Source: a virus. From it: a stretch of 64,000 nt of DNA. This document shows, piece after piece, positions 14,065-54,433 of the stretch (its first letter is position 1; each line of letters begins with the position of its first letter). The notes beneath the pieces were generated by a model. That model worked only from the letters and a program-made list of their open reading frames with translations, did no database searches and was not told the DNA's origin. The stretch lies in the IMG/VR virus record IMGVR_UViG_3300008952_000003, positions 124,001 through 188,000 of that record. One strand, given 5' to 3'. The translations under genes and the position numbers were made by a program.

Positions 14065-14955
14065 TTGCCTTCTTACCACTTGTCTGGAATAGTTCCGGTT
14101 GCTGGCCAGCCATTAGATTTCAAGATGGACTGGCACGACTCTATGATGCCCATCGCTCCGGATTATTTAGCGGTCGAGCGCGCTGTATATGAGTGTGCTT
14201 GGGCAGGCTGCGAAACTATTTGGATTGTGTGCAATGATGACATGTCGCCCCTGATTCGTCACCGAATTGGAGAATGGGTGCAGGACCCTGTTTGGATTGG
14301 GAGAAGACTCGATCCTTATCCATCCCAAACAAGAAAACAAATTCCAATATTTTACGTGCCAGTCCGCGCAAAGGATATTGGAAAGAGAGACTGCTTGGCT
14401 TGGAGTATATTGCATGGCGCAGTCACGGCTTTTGAAATTTCTGCTCGATTGAGCAAGTGGGTGATACCAACAAGAAATTATGTTGCTTTCCCATACGGTG
14501 TCTACGACCCAGAGATCCTCCGAGAATACAGAAAAAACATCTCCAGCGCCAGACCATTCATGTTAGCTCGTAATGGCAAGACCGTTCAGGATGGAGAATA
14601 TCTTGGTTTTACCTTTGATAAGGACGATTTTGTGTCATCGCGCCGAAAGATTCGCGAGGGCACCGGGAAATATAATTCTAAAGTCCTAGAAGACGGTCTA
14701 TATCCCAGGGAGAAGCTGCCAAAAGAAGAAAGATACTCTGCGCGCTATTTTTCCCTTGACAAAATTTTTAAATCTGTTATAATAGATATAGAAAACAAAG
14801 TAGAAGTCCCATGGTATTATAACATAGATTCTTGGGACGGATACTGTAGCTATTTGGGATCAGAAGAGCGAAAGCTGGTTGAAAGACCTCACCCAATCTT
14901 TATGAAATACCACGAATGGAATGAAATAGGAGTTGATGATGAAACTAATGAGTAA
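14065..14955 (+). CDS. Nucleotidyltransferase-like (sugar-nucleotide type) protein
   Basis: 296 residues, TTG start one base after the OMP stop. The N-terminus, HLSGIVPVAGQPLDFKMDWHDSMMPIAP..LAVERAVYECAWAGCETIWIVCND, follows the order of GT-A nucleotidyltransferases: a strand with PVAG, a product site (PIAP), then helix and strand. The later part is unmatched. It may activate a sugar or modify a nucleotide; compare the phosphomannomutase and cupin genes at 35-39 kb. A promoter lies inside its 3' part (14756). Confidence 0.5.
   Translation: MPSYHLSGIVPVAGQPLDFKMDWHDSMMPIAPDYLAVERAVYECAWAGCETIWIVCNDDMSPLIRHRIGEWVQDPVWIGRRLDPYPSQTRKQIPIFYVPVRAKDIGKRDCLAWSILHGAVTAFEISARLSKWVIPTRNYVAFPYGVYDPEILREYRKNISSARPFMLARNGKTVQDGEYLGFTFDKDDFVSSRRKIREGTGKYNSKVLEDGLYPREKLPKEERYSARYFSLDKIFKSVIIDIENKVEVPWYYNIDSWDGYCSYLGSEERKLVERPHPIFMKYHEWNEIGVDDETNE
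14756..14783 (+). promoter_or_regulatory. Internal promoter upstream of the DnaE operon
   Basis: TTGACA 14756-14761, 16-base spacer, perfect TATAAT 14778-14783, within the preceding coding sequence. It would transcribe the small gene at 14939 and dnaE. Confidence 0.6.
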
Positions 14956-42743: not shown

Positions 42744-43886
42744 GTGCTAAAATCAAACCTATCTGTAGTACCCTCCGTCATCCCACCACTTCCACAGCAG
42801 TCCGCTATCCAGTGGGATACTTATCTTAAATCGTGCCCCACCCGACCAGCTCGGTGTCCGGTACGCGAACACGCCGGGATCAATGGCGGTATCGCAAAAG
42901 AATATTTAATAGATATTCACTTAATCGTAAAAGACCCTTACTATCAAAATCGCCTTCTCGGTGCCCTTGCGAACAAGATTAGTGAGTTAGCTAACCAACT
43001 CCACACTTGTCCAGAAGGGCTGAAAGTTGGTATCTGTGTGGCTCTTGGGCCCAACGGCGACCTTCTATTACGTTGGGGTAACCACCGACTTCGCGCAACT
43101 AAGCAAAACAATGGAAATAACTTAGCTATCCCTAACATGCCCGTAGGAAAAATCTGGGCTTCAATTTATGACTTTCCAACGTCACAGGTTCGCAAGTGGC
43201 AAGCTGTAGAAAATAACATACACGATGTCTCTAGTCCTGCTACAAAAGACGATAATGTACTTTCTTTGAAGGAAATGGTTGCCGCTGGCGAATTGGATAC
43301 TTCTGCTTCCAAGTTTGTCGATTGCGACGACGAAGAAAAGGATAAGCGTTTAAAGAAGATTATTAAAGAAACGATGCCAAGTTGGTCGACCAAAATTAAA
43401 CGTTTGATTAAGGAGTTTCGTCGCCAAAATACCAATGTTTATCGAGTGGAATCGTATACAGCCCGCGAAATGAAAACTTACTTTAAGAAAAACTGTCCAC
43501 TTCACGGAGAACTTGATTTTAGCTCCTATTCGGAGAGTAATAAGAATATTATTAAGTCCACATTGCCAGATGGTTCAGTTCGTTCGAGCAAGATTGTATT
43601 TACTCATGCTGCCAGCGCAGACCTTGGCGGCGCAATCTTTCAAACTGCCATGCAAAACAAATTTGTTGACGTAGACTGCGACGAAGTTGTCTTAGTAAGT
43701 TGTCATAGCGGCAAGGCTGAAGCTGGTTTGAACTCGACTCGAAAGGACCGAGAAACATTAGTCCGAACTTGGAATTCGGCACTACCAGGCGGTTCTCATA
43801 CAAGGTTGATTGATAGGATCTTCGTACTTCCGCAGACAACAGCGGAAAAGAAAGGTTCTAAGTTTATTTCTAAGAAGCCTCTATAG
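42744..43886 (+). CDS. ParB-like protein, copy 2
   Basis: 380 residues, GTG start with AGGAG. WGNHRLRATKQ corresponds to GVHRCEAA of copy 1 at 21966; ATKDDNVLSLKEMVAAGEL, ETMPSW and VLPQTTAE are also shared. The N-terminal 60 residues differ (SCPTRPARCPVREHAG). The copies are diverged well beyond recent duplication, so each probably has its own DNA target. Copy 2 is under an early-type promoter, copy 1 in the restriction operon. Confidence 0.6.
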   Translation: MLKSNLSVVPSVIPPLPQQSAIQWDTYLKSCPTRPARCPVREHAGINGGIAKEYLIDIHLIVKDPYYQNRLLGALANKISELANQLHTCPEGLKVGICVALGPNGDLLLRWGNHRLRATKQNNGNNLAIPNMPVGKIWASIYDFPTSQVRKWQAVENNIHDVSSPATKDDNVLSLKEMVAAGELDTSASKFVDCDDEEKDKRLKKIIKETMPSWSTKIKRLIKEFRRQNTNVYRVESYTAREMKTYFKKNCPLHGELDFSSYSESNKNIIKSTLPDGSVRSSKIVFTHAASADLGGAIFQTAMQNKFVDVDCDEVVLVSCHSGKAEAGLNSTRKDRETLVRTWNSALPGGSHTRLIDRIFVLPQTTAEKKGSKFISKKPL

Positions 43887-43939: not shown

Positions 43940-43994
43940 TTGACATTCTCTTGACAATTTAACCATTGACTTTAACTTAAATAACGTGTATAAT
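43940..43994 (+). promoter_or_regulatory. Triple-box promoter P3
   Basis: TTGACA 43940, TTGACA 43951, TTGACT 43966, TATAAT 43989. Transcription should start about 44000-44001, exactly at the structured RNA. Confidence 0.85.
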
Positions 43995-44000
43995 GTATGT

Positions 44001-44091
44001 ATAAATAGGGAGAGAGGCGCGGGTTCAAATCCTGTCACGACCAAGGGACCAGTTGTGAAGTGTTGCTAGGTGGCACGCTCGCCCTATTTAT
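44001..44091 (+). ncRNA. Structured RNA, circularly permuted tRNA-like fold
   Basis: ATAAATAGGG (44001-44010) pairs with CCCTATTTAT (44082-44091), extended by GAG/CTC. Inside lie a T-arm-like hairpin (GCGGG-TTCAAAT-CCTGT, 44019-44035), CACGAC (44036-44041) pairing with GTTGTG (44052-44057), and a GTG/CAC hairpin with an 11-base loop (44060-44076) like a D arm. The order T arm, 3' acceptor strand, linker, 5' acceptor strand, D arm is that of a permuted tRNA or the acceptor half of a two-piece tmRNA. It could be a cis leader of 44123 or a free RNA. Confidence 0.55.
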
Positions 44092-44122
44092 ATCACCAAT
44101 CAATTCAAACCAGGAGCCCAAA

Positions 44123-44287: not shown

Positions 44288-44513
44288 ACAAGGAACACAA
44301 ACAACACTGAAGCCCAATAAAGGGGCATCACAGCGGACCCGAAATCGTATTCGCGAAAAGGGTCCGTCTTTTATTGTCGAGCTTGAGGCGACAATGTTAA
44401 CCAACACAGCCTCTTCAATTGATGGGAAAATTTGTGTTTGCTTTCGACAAATCGATGGTGATTGGTCGGGTTGGCTCCCCGTCGACGAGATTCACGCAAT
44501 AACTTCACTATGA
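44265..44513 (+). CDS. Small hypothetical protein
   Basis: 82 residues; basic N-terminal half (KPNKGASQRTRNRIREKG), then a beta-rich half (SFIVELEATML, ICVCFRQIDGDWSGWLP). It overlaps its neighbours on both sides (ATGA at the end). ATG 44268 is an alternative start. Confidence 0.55.
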   Translation: MMTTSHFKQGTQTTLKPNKGASQRTRNRIREKGPSFIVELEATMLTNTASSIDGKICVCFRQIDGDWSGWLPVDEIHAITSL

Positions 44514-44524
44514 GAGAGAGCAGC

Positions 44525-44749
44525 ATGAAAAGACAATACTTCGAGCCAGGGCAAATTGTTCAGCTAGACCGCCCAGAATTGGGCGAGCGCGATACGTGGA
44601 GATTTATTGTTCTATCTTCGGGTCACAGTCGGTCGCGTCCACCTGGCCGATATTCTCTTTATTGCATTCGCGCCCCATCTTATCGTAAAGCAGACCTCAA
44701 TACCATTCAGTATGTATCTGGTTGCAGCCTGCGAATAACGGAGGACTAA
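44525..44749 (+). CDS. SH3-like array paralogue 1
   Basis: 74 residues. FEPGQIVQL, then WRFIVLSS, PPGRYSLYCI and a final strand CSLRITED define the family pattern used below: an N-terminal 'xPGxIV', a central 'W.IVL', an aromatic strand and a closing strand. The layout fits a small beta barrel. GAGAG before ATG 44525 decides the start over ATG 44510. Function unknown. Confidence 0.7.
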   Translation: MKRQYFEPGQIVQLDRPELGERDTWRFIVLSSGHSRSRPPGRYSLYCIRAPSYRKADLNTIQYVSGCSLRITED

Positions 44750-44752
44750 TAA

Positions 44753-44974
44753 GTGAAGTTTAAATCATCAGATTTTAGCAAGGGTCAATTTTATAAGTTG
44801 AAGACCCAATCCTTTATTATCTTGGATAAGGAATCAATAAGTGGGTGGTTCGACCGCATCTCTGTGTACTTTGTCACGTGCAGAAACAAGCAGTTAAGAG
44901 GAAAGAAAAAAGAATTTACCAGTGGTGGTTTTGAAATTTACTTAAACAAGCTTTGCTCCAGCGAACATAAATAA
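44753..44974 (+). CDS. SH3-like array paralogue 2
   Basis: 73 residues, GTG start three bases after the previous stop. FSKGQFYKL and SFIILDKES fit the family; the closing part (GFEIYLNKL) is more basic than in other members. Its last codons form one arm of the 23-bp inverted repeat. Confidence 0.65.
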   Translation: MKFKSSDFSKGQFYKLKTQSFIILDKESISGWFDRISVYFVTCRNKQLRGKKKEFTSGGFEIYLNKLCSSEHK

Positions 44975-45199
44975 AATGACCGAGGAGGTTACATAACTTG
45001 AAAGCGTAGCCCGTTGCTATATAGGGCTACCTCTTGATTCTAAGGGTTGGCGACAGCGCTGCTTCAGGCGCGGCGCATTATGAGCCTTCTATCTCCATTA
45101 TCAAGGGGGCGCGCGCGAAGCGTCAACAAACAATTTATGTAGATAGGAAGCCGGATATCCGAGCAAAACGGCATCGACCTCCTCGGTCATTTTATTTAT
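44967..45199 (+). ncRNA. Structured RNA closed by a 23-bp perfect stem
   Basis: Bases 44967-44989 are perfectly complementary to 45177-45199. Between them lie hairpins GTAGCCC/GGGCTAC (45006-45030) and GCGCTGC/GCGGCGC (45056-45076), a long-range helix CCTCTTGAT/ATCAAGGGG (45030-45038 with 45100-45108) and GCCTTCTATCT (45084-45094) pairing with GATAGGAAGC-type bases (45139-45152), which crosses the former and makes a pseudoknot. No open frame of note occurs inside. The GC-rich core and pseudoknot suggest a functional RNA. Unrecognised class. Confidence 0.65.
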
Positions 45200-45206
45200 A
45201 ATTCTC

Positions 45207-45261
45207 TTGACATTCTCTTGACAATTTAGTTCTTTACTTTCTCTCTAAAAGCGCGTATAAT
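45207..45261 (+). promoter_or_regulatory. Triple-box promoter P4
   Basis: TTGACA 45207, TTGACA 45218, TTTACT 45233, TATAAT 45256. Drives the four-gene paralogue block from 45288. Confidence 0.85.
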
Positions 45262-45287
45262 GTAAGTATACAAAAGAGAGTTGTGCC

Positions 45288-45536
45288 ATGCTAGACATCA
45301 ATAACTTAAAGTCAGGGCAAATGGTGAGATACTCCTCAAAGATCTTTGATTCTGAGAAATCGGTAGAGTCTTTGTGGATATTGCTAGAGGAAGAACTCGG
45401 AGCCCATCCGCTGGGCCGCGCGTTCAAACTGTATCAAATATATGATAGTCAAAACTATGTCGACCCCCAGTACATAACAGTTACTTACATTTTTAACTCA
45501 CTCAACGCTAAAGATTTCACGCTGGAGGTGCCATGA
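45288..45536 (+). CDS. SH3-like array paralogue 3
   Basis: 82 residues: LKSGQMVRYS, LWILLEEELG, FKLYQIYDSQ, YIFNSL. Its closest relative is the next gene, with which it shares most of these phrases; ATGA overlap between them. Confidence 0.72.
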   Translation: MLDINNLKSGQMVRYSSKIFDSEKSVESLWILLEEELGAHPLGRAFKLYQIYDSQNYVDPQYITVTYIFNSLNAKDFTLEVP

Positions 45537-45793
45537 TAGATATCAATAGCTTAAAGTCAGGGCAAATGTTAAGATATTCCGTAAAATTGTATGCATCGCA
45601 GGAACACGTTGAATCTTTGTGGATATTGCTGGGGGAAAGTAAAGCGCATGCGTTCTGCCGCCCCGGAGAAAGATTGTTCAAAATGTATCAAATATATGAT
45701 AGCCACAATGACCTTTTCATCTTGCGTAATCGACCAACCGATTACATTTTTAACTCAAGTACCATTAAGAATTTTGTATTGGAGCCGGCATGA
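45533..45793 (+). CDS. SH3-like array paralogue 4
   Basis: 86 residues: LKSGQMLRYS, LWILLGES, FKMYQIYDSH, YIFNSSTIKNFVLEP. A clear recent duplicate of paralogue 3 with a longer central loop. Confidence 0.72.
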   Translation: MIDINSLKSGQMLRYSVKLYASQEHVESLWILLGESKAHAFCRPGERLFKMYQIYDSHNDLFILRNRPTDYIFNSSTIKNFVLEPA

Positions 45794-46002
45794 AAGATGA
45801 GCTTAAAGCAGGACAATTAAGAACTGTTCCACGTGGTGGGCTTGAGGGCGCAGTGGTTATTCTTTTGGATATACAGGAACACGCAAGAGTGTTGACCCCC
45901 AAGAATCAGATTTGGAACTCGATTATCGTCTTTTCACCCAGTCCATACTGGGAGCCTGGCGAGAAAATAGGTCTTCGTGGCATAGATTTGATGAACTGGT
46001 GA
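45790..46002 (+). CDS. SH3-like array paralogue 5
   Basis: 70 residues: LKAGQLRTV, AVVILLDIQE, WEPGEKIGLRGIDLMNW. Overlaps the previous gene by four bases (ATGA). Lacks the usual charged loop after the first strand. Confidence 0.68.
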   Translation: MKDELKAGQLRTVPRGGLEGAVVILLDIQEHARVLTPKNQIWNSIIVFSPSPYWEPGEKIGLRGIDLMNW

Positions 46003-46005
46003 GTT

Positions 46006-46239
46006 ATGGATTTCGAACCCGGCCAAGTCCTGAATCTATATAGTGGCTACGAGCAGAGCGCTGAAGAGGAGCTATTGTCATCCAGTATAATCGTGGAAGT
46101 TCGAGAGCACTCCCTGCTTCTGTTTAAATTTTATACTAGATTTCCAGACCCAACAGAGGGCGCCCTCGTACTTCAAGCTAAAGAATATATAGAAGAAGAG
46201 TGGGATAATAAATATTTCTATTGGAGAATAGAAAGTTAA
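46006..46239 (+). CDS. SH3-like array paralogue 6
   Basis: 77 residues: FEPGQVLNL, SSIIVEVREHS, LLFKFYTRF, YWRIES. More acidic than its neighbours. Last member of the P4 block; P5 begins seven bases after its stop. Confidence 0.68.
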   Translation: MDFEPGQVLNLYSGYEQSAEEELLSSSIIVEVREHSLLLFKFYTRFPDPTEGALVLQAKEYIEEEWDNKYFYWRIES

Positions 46240-47281: not shown

Positions 47282-48076
47282 ATGGCATACACAAGAAACT
47301 ACAAAAGAACCGTCCGATGCTCATACTGCGGAGATTCCGGTCACAACCGCTCATCATGCTCAAACCTGAAAGAGCATATTGAAAAACTACGCGCCGAACA
47401 CGGCGACGAGCATTATACCGTTCGAGTCCATGACCGCAAGAAAGCAAAACGGAAGGCCAGCGGAAAGAGTCGCAAGTGTTCATACTGCGACGAAGGCGGC
47501 CACAACCGCGCAACCTGTTCGCACTTGAAAGAGCACATGGCTGAAACCAGAGCTAAAAACTCTGAATTCAGGAAGGCTGTTTATAGGCACCTGTGCCGCC
47601 TGGGAATAGGCGTTGGGGCCATAGTTTCGAGCGACACCCACCAGAATCGTATCGATCCAGACAACTTTGAGAGTGCGCGCTACCGAGTTCCGCAGATTGT
47701 AACAGATATAAATTGGCTCGGAATCAACGTATGGAACCGCGAAGTTTGGTATTTTGACAGTTCCTCCTCGGGCCACACTGGCGACCGCCCAGCACCTCTT
47801 TTCGTCGTTCCTATGGGGAACCTCGGCGCCTACAACTGGAAGAATGTAATGGGCTACCCGTTCGATGAGGAGCTTTTAAAGCTGTTTTTGAACGAGCGTC
47901 TTTTGGGAGAGCTAAAGGACGGCTCTCACTGGCGTGCTAATGAGAAGGAAAACCACTTCTTAACTATTGAATCACCCGTTCCGCCCACTGCCCCACCTAA
48001 AGGCTGGTTTAGTTCCAAGGACAAGAAAATTAAAGAGATTTACAAGCGCCGAAAGAGTTGGCAAGGGGCTTTATAA
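47282..48076 (+). CDS. Double zinc-knuckle protein
   Basis: 264 residues. Two CCHC-like knuckles, RCSYCGDSGHNRSSCSNLKEH (residues 13-33) and KCSYCDEGGHNRATCSHLKEH (about 65-85), are separated by a basic linker (HDRKKAKRKASGKSRK). The remaining 170 residues are unmatched, aromatic-rich and end basic. Knuckles of this sort bind single-stranded RNA or DNA, so an RNA-binding regulator acting on the nearby structured RNAs is a possibility. GGAG before the ATG. Confidence 0.75.
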   Translation: MAYTRNYKRTVRCSYCGDSGHNRSSCSNLKEHIEKLRAEHGDEHYTVRVHDRKKAKRKASGKSRKCSYCDEGGHNRATCSHLKEHMAETRAKNSEFRKAVYRHLCRLGIGVGAIVSSDTHQNRIDPDNFESARYRVPQIVTDINWLGINVWNREVWYFDSSSSGHTGDRPAPLFVVPMGNLGAYNWKNVMGYPFDEELLKLFLNERLLGELKDGSHWRANEKENHFLTIESPVPPTAPPKGWFSSKDKKIKEIYKRRKSWQGAL

Positions 48077-48190: not shown

Positions 48191-49345
48191 ATGTCTATTG
48201 CTATCACATTCGCAAACCTCAATTCCATGATTCCAACACTCCTTTCGGGAGACGAAAAAGACCTTTATTCAGTTCTTATTCGCGGCCGCCACGGCATCGG
48301 GAAATCATGGGTTGCTTATCAAACTGCTGCCGGCCTCACTTGGGACGCCTCGGAAAACAAGACGCGTCCGCTAAGAGGGAGCGAAAAAGCCCTCCCAGTG
48401 GTTGAGATTCGCGCCTCCCAAATGACCGAGGGCGACCTTCTCGGCCTCCCTTCTCCTCATGAAGTCGACATTAACGGAGAAAAAGCAGCTTCGTTGCGTC
48501 CTTTCGCGTGGCTTGTTAAAGCCTGTACCGAGCCCGTTGTCCTTTTCCTTGATGAAGTTGACCGAGCCACAACGGAGGTTCGCCAGGGCTTCTTTCAGCT
48601 TGGTGATAGTCGTCAAATTAACGGCTGGAAACTTCATCCTGGCACTGTTGTTTTTGGCGCGGTAAATGGAGGAGTTCATGCTGCACAATATCAGGTAGCT
48701 GATATGGACCCCGCAGAGCTTGACCGCTGGGTTACGTTTGACGTCGAGCCATCTATCGAAGATTGGCTCGCTTGGGGCAAATCCGAAGTTCATTCTATTA
48801 TCTGGGATTTTGTCAATCAAAACCATGATCATCTTGAGCACAAGGGGGAATTCGAGCCGGGCACCGTGTACCCTTCGCGCCGCTCGTGGCATCGCTTGAG
48901 CAATACTCTTGCAAAAGTTGATATGCTCGACGAAGAGAGTCCAAATCTGGGGCTGCTATTCAATCTCTCTCATGGGTTCGTCGGCTTTGAGGCCGCCGTA
49001 GCCCTCCGTGATTTTGTTGAGAATTACGAGCGCCAAGTCACTGTTGAGGACATCTTGGTCCATGGCAGAATAGATAAAACCAAGGACTTCGGACTTGTCG
49101 ACCACGTGGCCCTCATCGAAAAGATTGACGCAAGTGGGGTTTTCGCCGCAGCAATTGAGAATTCGAAAATGATCAACTTGGTCGATTACTTCGATGCACT
49201 CCCAGCAGAGGCCCGCATGAAACTGTTTACAACCCTGACCGCAGCTAACAGCCAGGTATCCGCCGAGAATGGAGCGAACTTCCACCGCGAACTGGCCAAG
49301 CAAGGCAAAGTGGAAGCATTTATCAAGCTTCTTGGTGGAAAATAA
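48191..49345 (+). CDS. MoxR-type AAA+ ATPase
   Basis: 384 residues. Walker A GRHGIGKS (residues 32-39), an ASQMTEGDLLGLPSP segment typical of MoxR, Walker B VVLFLDEVDRA, sensor 1 FGAVNGG and an arginine-rich sensor 2 segment (SRRSWHRLS). MoxR ATPases remodel metal-binding or stress complexes together with a VWA partner; the next gene supplies one. GGAG precedes the ATG. Confidence 0.85.
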   Translation: MSIAITFANLNSMIPTLLSGDEKDLYSVLIRGRHGIGKSWVAYQTAAGLTWDASENKTRPLRGSEKALPVVEIRASQMTEGDLLGLPSPHEVDINGEKAASLRPFAWLVKACTEPVVLFLDEVDRATTEVRQGFFQLGDSRQINGWKLHPGTVVFGAVNGGVHAAQYQVADMDPAELDRWVTFDVEPSIEDWLAWGKSEVHSIIWDFVNQNHDHLEHKGEFEPGTVYPSRRSWHRLSNTLAKVDMLDEESPNLGLLFNLSHGFVGFEAAVALRDFVENYERQVTVEDILVHGRIDKTKDFGLVDHVALIEKIDASGVFAAAIENSKMINLVDYFDALPAEARMKLFTTLTAANSQVSAENGANFHRELAKQGKVEAFIKLLGGK

Positions 49346-49368
49346 GAGAGTGTGATAGCAAAGGTTGC

Positions 49369-49418
49369 AGCGCTGGCGTCGGTTGGTTGTTATCCGACGC
49401 TAGCGCTCCCTTTCTCTT
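49369..49418 (+). terminator. Terminator-like hairpin after the MoxR gene
   Basis: AGCGCTGGCGTCGG (49369-49382) pairs with CCGACGCTAGCGCT (49394-49407), 14 bp with one G-T pair and an 11-base loop, followed by CCCTTTCTCTT. The U run is imperfect. It separates MoxR from P8. Confidence 0.7.
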
Positions 49419-49471
49419 GACATTCTCTTGACAATTTAATCCTTTACTTTTGCGCTAAAAGCGTGTATAAT
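49417..49471 (+). promoter_or_regulatory. Triple-box promoter P8
   Basis: TTGACA 49417, TTGACA 49428, TTTACT 49443, TATAAT 49466. Its leader matches P5's base for base. Confidence 0.85.
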
Positions 49472-49496
49472 GTATATATAGAATGGAGTTTACCCT

Positions 49497-50831
49497 ATGA
49501 CACCGACACCCTTTAATCTTGACGAACATATTGTTGGCCTTCTCCGAGACGAGCCCTTCTTCGCCGCCCTCTCGCGCCGCATGGAAAAGGTGGCATCGAG
49601 GTCAGTTCCTACGGCTGGAGTAGCTTTTAATGAGGAGCGCGCCCGGTTTGAGCTATACTATAATCCCGAATTCATGGCAGACATGCTCTCGCAAGATAAG
49701 AAATATGTTAAGGGCATTCTTTTACACGAGTTCTATCATATCATGCTTTTACACGTAACTTCTCGCATGCCCGAAGGCAAGATGACGAGAAAGTGGAATA
49801 TCGCTACTGACCTCGCCATTAACAGCGAGCTATCTGTGTTTGCGGCTAACAGCGAAACTCCAACTGGGTACGCCGTTGAAAGCTCGCTCTTGCCGCTCGA
49901 TAAAGCGCTAATTCCCACTGTTGGGCCATTTTCCGAACTGAAGCCACATCTTTCGGCTGAAGAGTATATGGTTTTATTACCAGAATCCCCAGAGCAAGAT
50001 AATAATCCAGCCGACGGCCCCGGCGAGCCCGGTGACGATTCTGACTCCGATGGTCCCGGCAACCCAAGCGACGGCGATGGTGGTTCGTCACCAAGCGACC
50101 AGGAAGGCGACGAACAAGGAGGAGAGGGAAGTGGAGACGGCAACGGCTTCGATGATCATTCTGATTGGGGTTCTTCCGATGGTTCCGACGAGAATCGAAA
50201 AATAGCCGAAGAGAGACTAAAAGAAGCCATCAAGGAGGCATATGTCGAGGCCCAGTCTCGCGGTTTTGGTTCGGTTTCTGCTAGCATGAGGCGCACAATT
50301 AAGGATGTTATAACTCCCAAGGTAAACTGGCGCTCAATCCTGCGCTCTTTCGTCAAGGCTTCGCAGAGAGCAGATAGAACCTCAACTATCAAGCGCCTGA
50401 ATCGCCGATACGCTTACATTCATCCAGGCCGCAAGGCAAAGCGTCAAGCTAAAATCGCGGTTTCAATTGACCAATCTGGCAGTGTTTCCGATGGCATGCT
50501 CGTTGCATTTTATGCAGAGCTTGAAAAGCTGGCAACCATCGCTGATTTTACGATTGTCCCCTTTGATACCGAGGTTGCAGAAGAGCACATCCATGTTTGG
50601 AAGAAGGGCGCCCGCCACGAAAAGACTCGCTATAAGCATGGTGGAACCTGCTTCAACGCTCCAACCAGGTGGGTCAACGAGAATAACTTTGATGGTCACA
50701 TTGTCCTGACTGATATGGAGGCTCCAAAGCCCATTCCTAGCAAGTGTCAGCGTATGTGGATGACAACCAAGGCGCATGCAGAACGCCCTTACTTCCAGAC
50801 CAATGAGCGAGTGATAGCAATCAATGACTGA
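49497..50831 (+). CDS. VWA-like metallopeptidase-domain protein (MoxR partner)
   Basis: 444 residues. The N-terminal half has GILLHEFYHIMLLH, an HExxH motif, then WNIATDLAINSEL, the pattern of DUF2201-type proteins. A Gly/Asp/Ser/Pro-rich linker (about residues 165-245) joins to a C-terminal VWA-like domain (KIAVSIDQSGSVSDG, a DxSxS MIDAS; then GGTCFNAP and HIVLTDMEAP). With the ATPase upstream it forms the MoxR-VWA pair known from bacteria. In the phage it may remodel a host complex. Overlaps the next gene. Confidence 0.82.
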   Translation: MTPTPFNLDEHIVGLLRDEPFFAALSRRMEKVASRSVPTAGVAFNEERARFELYYNPEFMADMLSQDKKYVKGILLHEFYHIMLLHVTSRMPEGKMTRKWNIATDLAINSELSVFAANSETPTGYAVESSLLPLDKALIPTVGPFSELKPHLSAEEYMVLLPESPEQDNNPADGPGEPGDDSDSDGPGNPSDGDGGSSPSDQEGDEQGGEGSGDGNGFDDHSDWGSSDGSDENRKIAEERLKEAIKEAYVEAQSRGFGSVSASMRRTIKDVITPKVNWRSILRSFVKASQRADRTSTIKRLNRRYAYIHPGRKAKRQAKIAVSIDQSGSVSDGMLVAFYAELEKLATIADFTIVPFDTEVAEEHIHVWKKGARHEKTRYKHGGTCFNAPTRWVNENNFDGHIVLTDMEAPKPIPSKCQRMWMTTKAHAERPYFQTNERVIAIND

Positions 50832-51060
50832 TAGATACCTTAAAATCAGCAATATCGAATCTTTAAAAGCTGGAGATATTCTCTGTCTTCCTATGAAGGG
50901 AGAGCTAGGTGAGTGGTCGAGGCTTGTTGTATACGAGGTTACGAAAAGGTTGTTGAAAACTTATGTATTGCTTGACCAAGCTGGTGGCTGGGCTCCAGGA
51001 GATATGTATAGTTTCCAGTTAATTGGCTTCGACCCTGCGAATTGGAGGCTACTAGCATGA
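50824..51060 (+). CDS. SH3-like array paralogue 8
   Basis: 78 residues: LKAGDILCL, SRLVVYEVTK, WAPGDMYSFQL, NWRLLA. It opens the 14-gene block and its start overlaps the VWA gene by eight bases, so the whole block can be read through from P8. Confidence 0.72.
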   Translation: MTDRYLKISNIESLKAGDILCLPMKGELGEWSRLVVYEVTKRLLKTYVLLDQAGGWAPGDMYSFQLIGFDPANWRLLA

Positions 51061-51284
51061 TTCTTGAGTCTGGAACTATAATCGAGGAAATCTCGGATGG
51101 TCAAGTCGATATCCGGTGCCTGGTGTTGGAGTACGAAAAACATCCAACGGTTCGAGACTTGGGAACGTATGTTTTATATGTGATATATTCAGGCAATACA
51201 TACGCGCTCCCCGGCGAGACGATGGTGGTCAGGAGTACCCTTGTTGAATCTACGCATGCAAATTATCACTGGAGGATAATCTAA
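51057..51284 (+). CDS. SH3-like array paralogue 9
   Basis: 75 residues: LESGTIIEE, CLVLEYEKH, YVLYVIYSG, ALPGETMVV, YHWRII. ATGA overlap decides ATG 51057 rather than the upstream in-frame ATGs. Confidence 0.7.
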   Translation: MILESGTIIEEISDGQVDIRCLVLEYEKHPTVRDLGTYVLYVIYSGNTYALPGETMVVRSTLVESTHANYHWRII

Positions 51285-51535
51285 TGAAGTTTAAACCTGG
51301 AAATTTATTGAAGCACGAGAGGTCTTCCGGGCTCTGGATTGTCGTTGAGGCGCTCCCAATAAATAAGAAGGGCTCGCCTCACCGCCCGACCGTCTTTAGG
51401 CTCCAGATGACTGCCACTTGTGTCCAGCCCGGTACTTCAAACCTCCACTATCCTGGGAGCAGCGATACCTGGCTTTTCAAGGAGAAAGATGGAAGCGACC
51501 ATAACGATATGTGGAAGGTGATAAATGAAATTTAA
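51284..51535 (+). CDS. SH3-like array paralogue 10
   Basis: 83 residues: FKPGNLLKH, LWIVVEALP, FRLQMTATCV, MWKVINE. Start abuts the previous stop (TAATG). Confidence 0.72.
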   Translation: MKFKPGNLLKHERSSGLWIVVEALPINKKGSPHRPTVFRLQMTATCVQPGTSNLHYPGSSDTWLFKEKDGSDHNDMWKVINEI

Positions 51536-51770
51536 AGTCGGAGATTTAATAACTCACAAGCCTTTGGGTGGTAATACCGCCGTTGATGCGATTATCTTGA
51601 AGCACTGGCAAACTGAAACACCAGGAATGGGCGCCCAACAAAAGACGCAGCGCGTTGATAACGTGCATTTATTCATAACTTTCGACGAGGCTGACCCGAC
51701 TGCAGTTGGCGATATTGACGTGATGTGCGGTTTCCGAGAGCAGCATTGGAGCTTAAAAAATGGAGTTTAA
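51525..51770 (+). CDS. SH3-like array paralogue 11
   Basis: 81 residues: FKVGDLITH, DAIILKHWQ, VHLFITFDE, HWSLKNG. Pairs with paralogue 12 through the shared ILKHW/VVKHW and LF.T phrases. Overlaps the previous gene by 11 bases. Confidence 0.7.
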   Translation: MKFKVGDLITHKPLGGNTAVDAIILKHWQTETPGMGAQQKTQRVDNVHLFITFDEADPTAVGDIDVMCGFREQHWSLKNGV

Positions 51771-51981
51771 AGCTGGAGATATTGTAGTTTATAAACAGGA
51801 CGGCAAATCGTCAATTGAGGGCATTGTCGTCAAGCACTGGAAAGGGCCAAACCCGTGGGTAGCGGGAACCATTGATAATGTAGATTTATTCGTAACTTTG
51901 GATACGACCTGGCCTTCTAAGCTTCATAAAATTGAGACGTTTAGAAATTTTAGTACCCAGATTTGGGAGGTGAAAACATGA
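51760..51981 (+). CDS. SH3-like array paralogue 12
   Basis: 73 residues: FKAGDIVVY, EGIVVKHWK, VDLFVTLDT, IWEVKT. Close sister of paralogue 11, overlapping it by 11 bases. Confidence 0.7.
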   Translation: MEFKAGDIVVYKQDGKSSIEGIVVKHWKGPNPWVAGTIDNVDLFVTLDTTWPSKLHKIETFRNFSTQIWEVKT

Positions 51982-52205
51982 AAAAGGGCGACCTAATTCA
52001 GCTTCGAACCTCGGTTGCCGCGCGCCGCTGCAGGGGGATTGTATTGGAAGACGCCCCAAAAGATGCCAATTTTAGAACGAGAATCGCGGTGTATATGTTT
52101 TACGTTCCATCCTGGAACAACCTTAAATCAGGGGAAATTTGGGACATCCCCCTGAACAAGCTAGGCAAGCAATATGAGATTTTGGGTAAAATCGAAACTA
52201 TCTAA
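51978..52205 (+). CDS. SH3-like array paralogue 13
   Basis: 75 residues: MKKGDLIQL, CRGIVLEDAP, VYMFYVPSW, LKSGEIWDI, QYEILGK. ATG 51978 overlaps the previous stop with GGAGGTG upstream. Confidence 0.7.
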   Translation: MKKGDLIQLRTSVAARRCRGIVLEDAPKDANFRTRIAVYMFYVPSWNNLKSGEIWDIPLNKLGKQYEILGKIETI

Positions 52206-52208
52206 GGT

Positions 52209-52478
52209 GTGAAAAAGAGATATCTCCCAGGTCAAATAGTGAGTTTTATGAGGACTGGGGCTATATATTTGTTAATTGAGGAAGTGGAGATATCAATGCT
52301 TTCACCTCATTTTTTTAAAGGAACTGGTCAGGGGTTTAGAGCTAGAATTCTCTATACAGGAAGAACCTGGTCGAAACCAGGCGAAGAAAGGGAGATATTC
52401 ATCCTGCACGCATCATCTTATTACGAGATTTTATCGGACGTCGCCCCAGCCGCGCCCGCCCAGATAGTTGGTGATTAG
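52209..52478 (+). CDS. SH3-like array paralogue 14
   Basis: 89 residues, GTG start: YLPGQIVSF, IYLLIEEVE, ILYTGRTWSKPGE, YYEILSD and a short Ala/Pro tail. It is followed by a terminator, so it probably ends the first half of the block. Confidence 0.7.
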   Translation: MKKRYLPGQIVSFMRTGAIYLLIEEVEISMLSPHFFKGTGQGFRARILYTGRTWSKPGEEREIFILHASSYYEILSDVAPAAPAQIVGD

Positions 52479-52500
52479 CGCGTTTCGCGCGATTTTTTTC
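52478..52500 (+). terminator. Terminator inside the array
   Basis: GCGCG-TTT-CGCGC (52478-52490) followed by GATTTTTTTC. Short but GC-rich stem and a good T run; more T-runs lie at 52507-52514. Confidence 0.7.
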
Positions 52501-52531
52501 CGCTAAATTTTTTTTTCAACAGGATCACATT

Positions 52532-52789
52532 GTGAAGTTTAAACCAGGAAATATCATCGAACATTGCCCCACCAAAACAAGATGGATTGTGCTCTCTGCA
52601 GAGAATGTCGAGAAAAGAACAGGAATAAACAGCGCTTATAAGCTAGAAGTCGAAGCTTATTGCGTCTATTTGGGAAAACACAAGAGGGCAATTAAATATT
52701 GGGAAGTTAATCAGCGTGATACCTTTGTTTTGACACAGCAAGATTTAAATCCGAGTGACTTTGTATGGGAGGTTAGGAATGAAGTTTAA
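52532..52789 (+). CDS. SH3-like array paralogue 15
   Basis: 85 residues, GTG start: FKPGNIIEH, RWIVLSAEN, YKLEVEAYCV, VWEVRNEV. Nearest to paralogue 10. No promoter was seen between the terminator and this gene, so it depends on readthrough or an unseen start. Confidence 0.7.
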   Translation: MKFKPGNIIEHCPTKTRWIVLSAENVEKRTGINSAYKLEVEAYCVYLGKHKRAIKYWEVNQRDTFVLTQQDLNPSDFVWEVRNEV

Positions 52790-52970
52790 ACCAGGACAAT
52801 TGGTGAGAAAGAAAGCGAGAAAAGGAGATCCAGACGCAATCTATTATGTATTGGACACGAACTATCCTAAAATGCTGATTCATTGTGTTGAATCACTCTT
52901 TGATTTTATACAGGGGGAAGCCTATGAAGTCTGTGTTGGTGAGTGTGAATTGTTGATGGATTACCGATGA
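52779..52970 (+). CDS. SH3-like array paralogue 16
   Basis: 63 residues, the shortest member: FKPGQLVRKK, IYYVLDTNY, IQGEAYEV, CELLMDYR. ATG 52779 with GGAGG upstream is chosen over an in-frame upstream ATG. Confidence 0.66.
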   Translation: MKFKPGQLVRKKARKGDPDAIYYVLDTNYPKMLIHCVESLFDFIQGEAYEVCVGECELLMDYR

Positions 52971-53212
52971 CCTCGAAACCCGCGAAGATTAGGCTTGAAG
53001 CGGGGGATATCGTAACTCTCGATTATGCCCGCGACAAGCCAAAGGGAGACGCGCCATTATTCATAACGCTAGATGATCCGCCCTCGGTACACTATTCGGT
53101 GAATGTTTACTGCTTTTATAGCCCAGATCCAGGGTATGGGTACACGAATGCTGCTTGGCTTCATACAATTTTTGACATTTCCCAGAGCAGGTTAATAAAA
53201 GTTAATTATTGA
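52967..53212 (+). CDS. SH3-like array paralogue 17
   Basis: 81 residues: LEAGDIVTL, LFITLDDPP, VYCFYSPDPG, RLIKVNY. ATGA overlap with the previous gene. N-terminal extension of nine basic residues. Confidence 0.7.
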   Translation: MTSKPAKIRLEAGDIVTLDYARDKPKGDAPLFITLDDPPSVHYSVNVYCFYSPDPGYGYTNAAWLHTIFDISQSRLIKVNY

Positions 53213-53233
53213 AAAAGTTTTTCTATTTACAAT

Positions 53234-53500
53234 GTGAGCGACTTCTTTCCAGGTGATTTCATAGAGGAAACCATCGATAATAGAATAGTTGGCTATTATA
53301 TAGTATTAACCAGGCATTATTTAAACGGTTGCAAAGAGGATGGCATGATTTTGGGATATTACACTTTAATAGTATATAGTACAGGACACGCATTGCCAAC
53401 TCATTCTCCAGGATCAAACTGGTTTATCAAGCACTCTGATTTACAAAAATCCGATTTCAGAGTGGTATCCAGTGGCAAATTGTTGTGTCAAAGTCAATAA
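53234..53500 (+). CDS. SH3-like array paralogue 18
   Basis: 88 residues, GTG start: FFPGDFIEE, GYYIVLTRHY, YTLIVYSTG, SPGSNWFI, DFRVVSSG. First of four members with 'YIV..RH/RR', which form a subgroup with the next three. No clear ribosome site. Confidence 0.68.
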   Translation: MSDFFPGDFIEETIDNRIVGYYIVLTRHYLNGCKEDGMILGYYTLIVYSTGHALPTHSPGSNWFIKHSDLQKSDFRVVSSGKLLCQSQ

Positions 53501-53799
53501 TAGAAATCAATCCGGGTGACATTGTGGCGGAGATACTTGGCGGAGAAGAGACGGGCCGATATATTGTCACGAGCAGAAGATTCGTGCGAGACCACACATT
53601 AAGAGAATATGTCATGTATGAGGCGATTATTATATATATAACTGATGAATGGACAGACTTTCATAAGCCGGGTGATAAGTGGTCATTCGAATTGTATTCA
53701 GACGGGCACAGTATACAGGACGTTAGTTTCGGATCTTACACCTACAAAGTCCTGTTTAGAAGCTCGTTAACGTGGAAAGACATAGAAGTCATGGAATAA
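53485..53799 (+). CDS. SH3-like array paralogue 19
   Basis: 104 residues, GTG start inside the previous gene: INPGDIVAE, GRYIVTSRR, EAIIIYITD, KPGDKWSFEL and the tail SSLTWKDI. Shares the tail 'SxLxWxD' with paralogues 20 and 21. Confidence 0.7.
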   Translation: MSKSIIEINPGDIVAEILGGEETGRYIVTSRRFVRDHTLREYVMYEAIIIYITDEWTDFHKPGDKWSFELYSDGHSIQDVSFGSYTYKVLFRSSLTWKDIEVME

Positions 53800-53807
53800 A
53801 CACGCTA

Positions 53808-54146
53808 ATGACATTTGACGCAAAAACATTTAAAAAGAGCATCAGAAGGGGTGATATCCTCGTTGAAAAGTACAAACTAACAAAGCACGGACATCGAGAA
53901 GTGGTTAGCATATATCTAGTATTAAACAGGCATATGGAGAGTGAACCCATGGTCGATGGATACGAGAGAACACTTTTTTATAAAACCTATTTAATGTACG
54001 TTAATACTCGACAATGGTCATCAGGAGAGAAAAATCTGGTTGGAACGATATACTATTTATCAGAGCATGAAATCAGTGACCATCACAATTGGGAAAAACT
54101 GTTTGAATCTGGTTTATCATGGAATGATTCTTATCCGAGGACATAA
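53808..54146 (+). CDS. SH3-like array paralogue 20
   Basis: 112 residues, longest member: IRRGDILVE, SIYLVLNRHM, KTYLMYVNTR, SSGEKNLVG, ESGLSWND. ATG 53808 is chosen; the frame is open upstream but lacks a ribosome site. Confidence 0.7.
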   Translation: MTFDAKTFKKSIRRGDILVEKYKLTKHGHREVVSIYLVLNRHMESEPMVDGYERTLFYKTYLMYVNTRQWSSGEKNLVGTIYYLSEHEISDHHNWEKLFESGLSWNDSYPRT

Positions 54147-54154
54147 AAAAGAAA

Positions 54155-54433
54155 ATGAAAATTGATGAGTTATCTCCAGGGGATATAGTAAGAGAGAAGG
54201 ACGGCGATGAAGAAATAGCTCGTTATATAGTAATAAACAGGCATATCCAGCACCCAGGCGCACAATATTATTATGTCGAATATGATTGTATAATATTGTA
54301 CTATAATGGTAAGTTATACCAGAGACCTGAAAAGGTAGGAACATGGTGGATAATTGATTCAATCAATCTTAATAGTCCCAGAGAGAACTGGGAAATTGTG
54401 GTAGAAAGTGGGTTATCGTGGGATGATGATTAA
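54155..54433 (+). CDS. SH3-like array paralogue 21
   Basis: 92 residues: LSPGDIVRE, ARYIVINRHI, YDCIILYYNG, TWWIIDS, WEIVVESGLSWDDD. Last gene of the array; followed by about 350 bases without a gene. Confidence 0.72.
   Translation: MKIDELSPGDIVREKDGDEEIARYIVINRHIQHPGAQYYYVEYDCIILYYNGKLYQRPEKVGTWWIIDSINLNSPRENWEIVVESGLSWDDD

Follow-up and report, generated by a model that had tools for sequence, protein, structure and literature searches.

A pseudoknotted RNA closed by a long terminal stem and its relatives in a group of large phages

Introduction

In the genome of a virus, two 23-nt arms of DNA (44967-44989 and 45177-45199) are fully complementary and enclose 187 nt, which raises the question of whether they form a chance repeat, an element of the DNA or the closing stem of a folded RNA and, in the latter case, what such an RNA might do. 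The window, i.e. the whole stretch of DNA analysed here, is 64,000 nt long and runs from base 124001 to base 188000 of a virus record of 193,157 bases (IMGVR_UViG_3300008952_000003, also called G000). To our knowledge, elaborate conserved folds have been described in few phage RNAs, most of which are without a known function. A first-pass annotation of the window, made from the letters alone, had proposed a structured RNA of a class that it did not recognise. We find that this RNA is real and structured, that Rfam does not contain it, and that it belongs to a wider family than the annotation suggested. As far as the searched collections show, the phages that carry it form a large (~200 kb), uncultivated group, the MoxR ATPase and polymerase of which have their best annotated matches at less than 60% identity.

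Results

The terminal stem

The stem formed by the two arms, P1, is the longest inverted repeat in the window when 40-450 nt are allowed between the arms. In first-order Markov resamples of the window (n=60), the longest inverted repeat reached 11-15 bp, compared with the 23 perfect pairs observed. The annotation was right about the perfect complementarity of the arms. Its remark that one arm overlaps the end of a coding gene is equally correct, as the outer part of the 5' arm comprises the last codons and the stop of ORF 44753-44974; the inner 14 bp are common to the related contig L008. The 3' arm (45177-45199) was assigned by complementarity to the 5' arm and by comparison with relatives. 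On the plus strand, the full 233 nt fold with an energy of -93.7 kcal/mol and a z-score of -6.29, against -4.47 for the minus strand. Without the terminal stem, the 187-nt interior has a z-score of only -1.39, with 23 of 200 shuffles folding equally well, so the folding energy proves the stem and not the interior. The 23-bp repeat is a plus-strand RNA structure rather than a chance repeat.

A tRNA-like RNA is found nearby in the window (43996-44098), with a TATAAATAGGG/CCCTATTTATA stem around a T-arm-like GGGTTCAAATCC and a weak match to YrlA (16.8 bits, E 4.7, gathering threshold 69), and is kept in L005 (98%) and L008 (93%). The 'ATAAATA' start that both RNAs have in common had been taken as a hint of kinship between them. 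It is no feature of the family, since the 14-bp stem of L008 is without the outer AT part, and the suggested kinship is not supported.

Relatives of the window RNA and their covariation

With the nearby MoxR-type ATPase as a query, eight related viral contigs were obtained. The kind of RNA present in the window, hereafter type I, was found in L008, L006 and L004 by BLAST and by a covariance model (R1) built from these three copies and that of the window, and was newly detected by R1 in L019 (E 2e-18). A second model, R2, built from all five copies, recovered type I RNA in 5 of the 54 contigs searched whole (E 5e-46 to 4e-34), the same five that had been used to build it. The covariance-model search proposed by the first-pass annotation as a check has yielded homologues in phage contigs, with paired bases that change together. 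The type I RNAs are about 213-254 nt long and their cores, of 164-169 nt, are 66-87% identical among the five contigs; no conserved reading frame was found in these cores, in which most frames contain stops. When the viral collection was scanned with patterns, two strict scans gave no contig that was not already known, a third gave the L019 contig as the sole other one, and a looser scan gave 58 stretches, 55 of them new, with no credible further type I copy among the 55.

Several other matches were considered and rejected. Matches of R1 or R2 in L020 and L022 (judged by eye) and in L164 (where an ORF is listed) are apparently located in coding sequence, and those of L165-L167 are short partial R1 matches, of which only L165 was inspected. 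In L051/L054, the same motif is located within a gene of the opposite strand. Two named phages (L204, L205) gave short BLAST matches, which were also set aside. Five bacterial contigs obtained by scanning genome-wide with a pattern were rejected as well, since a 15-nt match (E 3) was all that fitted R1.

A terminal stem is present in each of the five type I copies, with lengths of 24, 14, 16, 20 and 14 bp when GU pairs are counted. Its inner 14 bp are identical in the window and L008, and the stems of L006, L004 and L019 have other sequences. Mononucleotide shuffles of the 70-nt flanks give stems of 6-7 bp on average, with single maxima of 13 bp (L008) and 16 bp (L019), so that the stems of these two contigs are convincing mainly by their position and as members of the set. 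The annotation had looked to homologues with an uncompensated break in the stem as evidence against it; instead, the five copies keep the stem with its sequence changed.

In the R1-fitted alignment of the five copies, 87.4% of the cells are paired and nine pairs are changed on both sides, against a mean of 4.4 in shuffled alignments, and 2 of 500 shuffles have as many. When the structure is slid out of register, pairing falls to 38-47%, with 0-5 pairs changed on both sides. These figures come from five sequences, and the fitting used P2, P4, P5, P6 and P7 and not P3, so the counts lean towards the fitted helices.

Helices of the type I RNA

All the helices described here are read on the plus strand and given in window coordinates. 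The two hairpins reported by the first-pass annotation are present as P2 and P5. P2 (45006-45012/45024-45030) closes an 11-nt loop, is paired in 100% of the cells of the five copies and has three of its seven pairs changed on both sides, while P5 (45056-45062/45070-45076) is paired in 66.7% of the cells, a weak support across copies. The long-range helix is likewise present as P3 (45031-45038/45100-45107), with 90% of the cells paired and one pair changed on both sides. With regard to the crossing helix, which had been placed at 45084-45095/45139-45152, it exists inside those limits as P4 (45087-45094/45141-45148), which crosses P3 and has 92.5% of its cells paired and one pair changed on both sides. 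However, P4 is nearly invariant in four of the five copies and therefore provides little covariation, and the pseudoknot proved by covariation is another one, PK2, discussed below.

PK2, P6 and P7 were absent from the annotation. The hairpin P6 (45108-45112/45120-45124) is paired in 68% of the cells in the fitted register and has two pairs changed on both sides, and neither P5 nor P6 has a good common register across the type I copies. The hairpin P7 (45150-45153/45169-45172) is paired in 100% of the cells, with two of its four pairs changed on both sides. The invariant single-stranded blocks of type I are GATTCTAAGG, CTCCATTA and the P7 loop.

A second, smaller type of RNA

A weak R1 match in L021 (G001:11505, 16.2 bits, E 0.014) is intergenic and has P1, P2 and the P7 motif, and was for this reason used as a query for further copies. 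A copy of this second kind, type II, is present in the window's own phage (G000:18954-19117) and is smaller than type I; the segment G000:18984-19105 was detected by R2 (E 0.029) and also by its DNA sequence, which is similar over 45 nt (84%) and 22 nt (95%). Further copies were found by search in G006 and G028, and these four were used to build a third model, R3. Type II RNA occurs in 13 of 81 contigs of the phage group (11 of 54 and 2 of 27 in the two sets searched), with 12 distinct sequences, including the four that built R3; in a twelfth contig of the first set, G004, R3 had matched the L019 type I RNA. Out of the nine matches of a pattern search, five are type II copies (G000, G001, G006, G021 and G028), and the other four (G014, G027, G037 and G044) were discarded after inspection by eye. 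The weakest copy, in G052 (E 0.056), was kept on account of its visible P2, PK2 (GUCACC/GGUGGC) and terminal stem. R3 gave no match on 29 other loci, and a minus-strand match in L219:1630-1701 (E 0.36) was dropped.

In the type II alignment A10, with nine distinct rows, 89.7% of the cells are paired and 19 of 25 pairs are changed on both sides. The covariation score is 0.598 against 0.186 +/- 0.028 after shuffling, and none of 500 shuffles scores as high. The copy in G001 folds no better than its shuffles and has a terminator-like T-run at its end. Some type II copies are found near tRNA or tmRNA genes (a tmRNA in L171, four tRNAs in L228 and one tRNA in L021). The phage-encoded tmRNA of L171 (L171:1826-2158 in G006; 122 bits), which lies close to the type II RNA, has the tag ANNNNHFDSVRLAA. 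In G052, G061 and G064 (L230, L231 and L232), the 3' arm of P1 apparently overlaps a CTTGACA promoter-type repeat, with bases shared between the two.

Both types have the P1 stem, a P2 hairpin with the loop-linker helix PK2, and P7 before the 3' arm of P1, in the common order P1-P2/PK2-P7-P1', and the motif of the P7 loop is common to both. R2, a type I model, matches the type II RNA of G001 (E 0.005) in addition to that of G000. Conversely, R3, which had no type I input, gives exactly three matches over 160 kb, all of them at the 3' end of a type I RNA: L019:1616-1665 (E 0.017), the P7 region of the window (45144-45172, E 1.9) and L008:6922-6950 (E 3.4). The score of R2 for the G001 copy (18.4 bits) is exceeded by that of the coding-sequence false positive L164 (22.9 bits), and a counterpart of the P3/P4 pair was looked for in type II and not found. 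Judging from the sequences, type I and type II are likely to be of common descent, although the E-values are modest.

The pseudoknot PK2

PK2 joins the loop of P2 to the linker before the 3' strand of P4 and, in the window, pairs AUAUA (45019-45023) with UAUGU (45136-45140). Both strands were placed by an exchange matrix of loops and linkers, and the 3' strand also by the equivalent helix of type II; the 5' strand may extend to 45017, and the 3' strand could reach 45142, where it would be in competition with P4. In L006 and L004, an A-U pair is changed to G-C, and in L019 the helix is replaced altogether (AUCUGA/UCAGAU). In a loop-by-linker energy matrix of seven RNAs, three of type I and four of type II, the true pairing is optimal, and the permutations that are as low, 24 of 5040, are as many as the possible exchanges of the four type II loops with one another. 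Over the 12 type II sequences, 70 of 72 cells are paired, with changes to A-U and C-G matched across the strands, and none of 5000 shuffles reaches the observed pairing (10 distinct strand pairs); in alignment A10, 96.3% of the PK2 cells are paired. Furthermore, the second pair is U-G in 8 of the 12 copies, which would be a mismatch if read on the other strand. As PK2 was absent from the fitted structure, this support is independent, and PK2 is proved by covariation in the sequences compared.

Genomic context

The window RNA is located at the 3' end of an operon, between the stop of ORF 44753-44974 and the next promoter. A promoter-like TTGACT-17-TATAAT (43966-43994, plus strand) would start the operon that ends with the RNA, and a promoter-like TTTACT-17-TATAAT (45233-45261, plus strand) just downstream of the RNA belongs to the next operon. 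The copies of L008, L006 and L019 likewise follow a gene and precede a promoter repeat, and no promoter of its own was found before any type I copy. With regard to type II, a promoter directly precedes P1 in three of the nine copies tested (G000, G006 and G046; p 0.016-0.024 each), and the predicted transcription start in G006 falls at P1. The genes neighbouring the RNAs differ between several phages, which argues against the control of one gene.

In L004, L006, L008 and L019, the type I RNA lies between orthologues of ORFs 46326 and 47282, and that of the window, 1.1 kb upstream of ORF 46326, has moved relative to them. L005 represents a clean empty site, 88% identical over the preceding 1 kb, in which the flanks join at ...GAACATAAATAAAACCTCTTGACATTC..., and the outer AT pairs of the window's P1 are supplied by the last part of the upstream ORF, a part that is also present, without the RNA, in L005. 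Because the promoter repeat CTCTTGACATTCTCTTGACA stands at the end of the additional stretch, the window copy would most simply have reached its position by recombination at this repeat.

The surroundings contain further conserved or repetitive features. A protein with two C-x2-C-x4-H-x4-C zinc knuckles (47282-48076) is conserved in the phage group, has no match among annotated proteins and may be a candidate RNA-binding protein. Its gene stands beside four of the five type I copies, which makes the protein an attractive candidate for a partner of the RNA, but orthologues also occur in L005, L009, L010 and L011, contigs in which the searches gave no type I RNA. Downstream (48191-50831) follow a MoxR-type AAA ATPase and a DUF2201 metallopeptidase/VWA-like protein. 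MoxR-vWA pairs in which vWA is fused to a metallopeptidase domain are outlined for jumbo phages, with a proposed role in virion assembly (PMC7824862), and genes 48191-49345 and 49497-50831 fit such a pair. A protein search with the neighbouring gene 42744-43886 found no relative, and family scans of the window indicated adenylosuccinate synthetase-like, IMP dehydrogenase, GroEL and Clp protease genes. Runs of short ORFs occupy 44510-46239 and 50824-54430; many of these ORFs have an xGQ motif near the start (SGQ, PGQ, KGQ, AGQ), some are alike, and near-identical promoter repeats separate their groups. In L006, a perfect 22-bp inverted repeat is present at 14680-14779 (arms 14680-14701 and 14758-14779).

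Comparison with known RNAs

The window RNA has no match in Rfam 15 (4227 families) at gathering or at E<=10, in agreement with its description as an unrecognised class, and no family exceeded its threshold in the copies scanned from L019, L021, L168, L171, L177, L223 and L225-L228, a set which leaves out type II L230-L232 and type I L004, L006 and L008. No match to the window RNA was obtained among annotated phages by DNA BLAST, and a non-exhaustive literature search found no description of a type I or type II RNA.

Group I introns have a P3/P7/P8/P9 topology, which is mirrored by the type I order of P3 5' strand, hairpin, P4 5' strand, P3 3' strand, P6 hairpin, P4 3' strand and P7 hairpin. 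However, type I RNAs have no P4-P6 domain and do not match the Rfam group I families. With YrlA (RF02553), the window RNA shares a long stem made of the paired 5' and 3' ends and a size class of 100-230 nt, but the 233 nt contain neither a YrlA match nor a tRNA-like gene. A search for YrlA in 47 contigs gave 34 weak matches, none over the cut-off, and was uninformative as 12 of 14 control genomes also gave such matches.

ROOL and GOLLD, in the account given by PMC12286853, are structured phage or prophage RNAs with pseudoknots and no known function, often found near tRNA islands (PMC12286853). The RNAs studied here resemble them, to the extent of that account, in being phage-encoded and pseudoknotted and in the location of some type II copies near tRNA or tmRNA genes. 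They differ in size, several hundred nt in ROOL and GOLLD against about 213-254 nt in type I, and the copies scanned have no Rfam match.

Discussion

What comparison shows to be kept in these RNAs is a P1 pairing of free sequence, the P2 hairpin with PK2, and P7 with its conserved loop, and type II, which is smaller and more widespread than type I, has these parts in the same order. A P1 stem of free sequence and the promoters just before P1 in three type II copies point to a self-contained RNA and not to a regulator of one gene. The reading that we favour, with some reserve, is that type I and type II form a new family of independently folding, sense-strand noncoding phage RNAs, which are cut from operons or transcribed beside them and act in trans. 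Transcription of the operon beginning near 43994 would produce the window RNA as the 3' tail of the transcript, and an RNase III-type enzyme, for instance, could release or trim it at the long P1 duplex. With both of its ends locked in P1, it would survive and might work in trans during infection, offering its pseudoknotted core and P7 loop to a partner, either a protein or another RNA.

The same location can be read differently. Lying between the stop of ORF 44753-44974 and the next promoter, as the copies of L008, L006 and L019 also lie between a gene and a promoter repeat, the folded tail could be a cis-acting 3'-UTR element that keeps 3' exonucleases off the operon mRNA and insulates this transcript against the promoter that follows, with no separate job as an RNA, and the terminator-like T-run of the G001 type II copy would suit such a role. 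However, conserved loop sequences, crossing helices and a loop-linker pseudoknot would be superfluous in a mere end-blocker, and neither the promoters directly before P1 in G000, G006 and G046 nor the differing genes adjoining the RNAs in several phages are expected of it, so that we regard this explanation as rather unlikely. The compact fold with several pseudoknots and the invariant GATTCTAAGG, CTCCATTA and P7 loop of type I would also be in keeping with an undescribed self-cleaving ribozyme or ligand-binding riboswitch; this seems improbable, given that no Rfam ribozyme or riboswitch matched the copies scanned and that, in the window, L006, L008 and L019, a promoter separates the type I RNA from the next gene, which argues against leader-type control.

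That the structure might be a by-product of a DNA-level element, such as a miniature inverted-repeat transposable element or a recombination hot spot, is suggested by the terminal inverted repeats, the presence or absence of the RNA with flanks joined cleanly in L005, and the different placement of the window copy relative to L004, L006, L008 and L019. Yet L006, L004 and L019 have other terminal-repeat sequences, which one transposase could hardly recognise, U-G is among the pairs, no sign of a target-site duplication is seen, and ordinary recombination explains the move of a stretch that ends in a repeated promoter sequence. The DNA-element explanation is largely refuted by the sequence-free P1 and is very improbable. 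Least probable of all, to a degree that makes it nearly negligible, is a bacterial Y RNA of the YrlA kind that partners a Ro60/Rsr protein. The long terminal stem, the tRNA-like RNA with its weak YrlA match 0.9 kb upstream and an annotated TROVE (Ro60-like) protein in the distantly related, 191-kb Vibrio phage phiKT1024 (OM249648; L206:53-1561), about 8 kb from a MoxR-like ATPase, would be compatible with it. Against it, no TROVE domain was found in the 193-kb record of the phage, which may itself be a fragment, and the 233-nt RNA has no YrlA match or tRNA-like gene.

Going beyond the favoured reading of a trans-acting family, these RNAs could, tentatively and with more doubt than confidence, be regarded as a class of phage effectors, in which a core of P2/PK2 and P7, shut by a stem of free sequence, is kept across ~200-kb phages, occurs as two paralogous lines in one genome and acts in trans on a machine of the host or the phage. 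If this were true, translation would be the process suggested by the tRNA and tmRNA genes that lie nearby in some phages. Unexplained phage RNAs are an already known kind, and the type I/type II family itself is absent from Rfam 15. The covariation of PK2 in 12 distinct sequences makes the fold directly testable, and the covariance models provide a means of finding it elsewhere. The two lines in one phage, the presence or absence of the RNA and its changed position suggest a mobile and useful RNA module in large phages.
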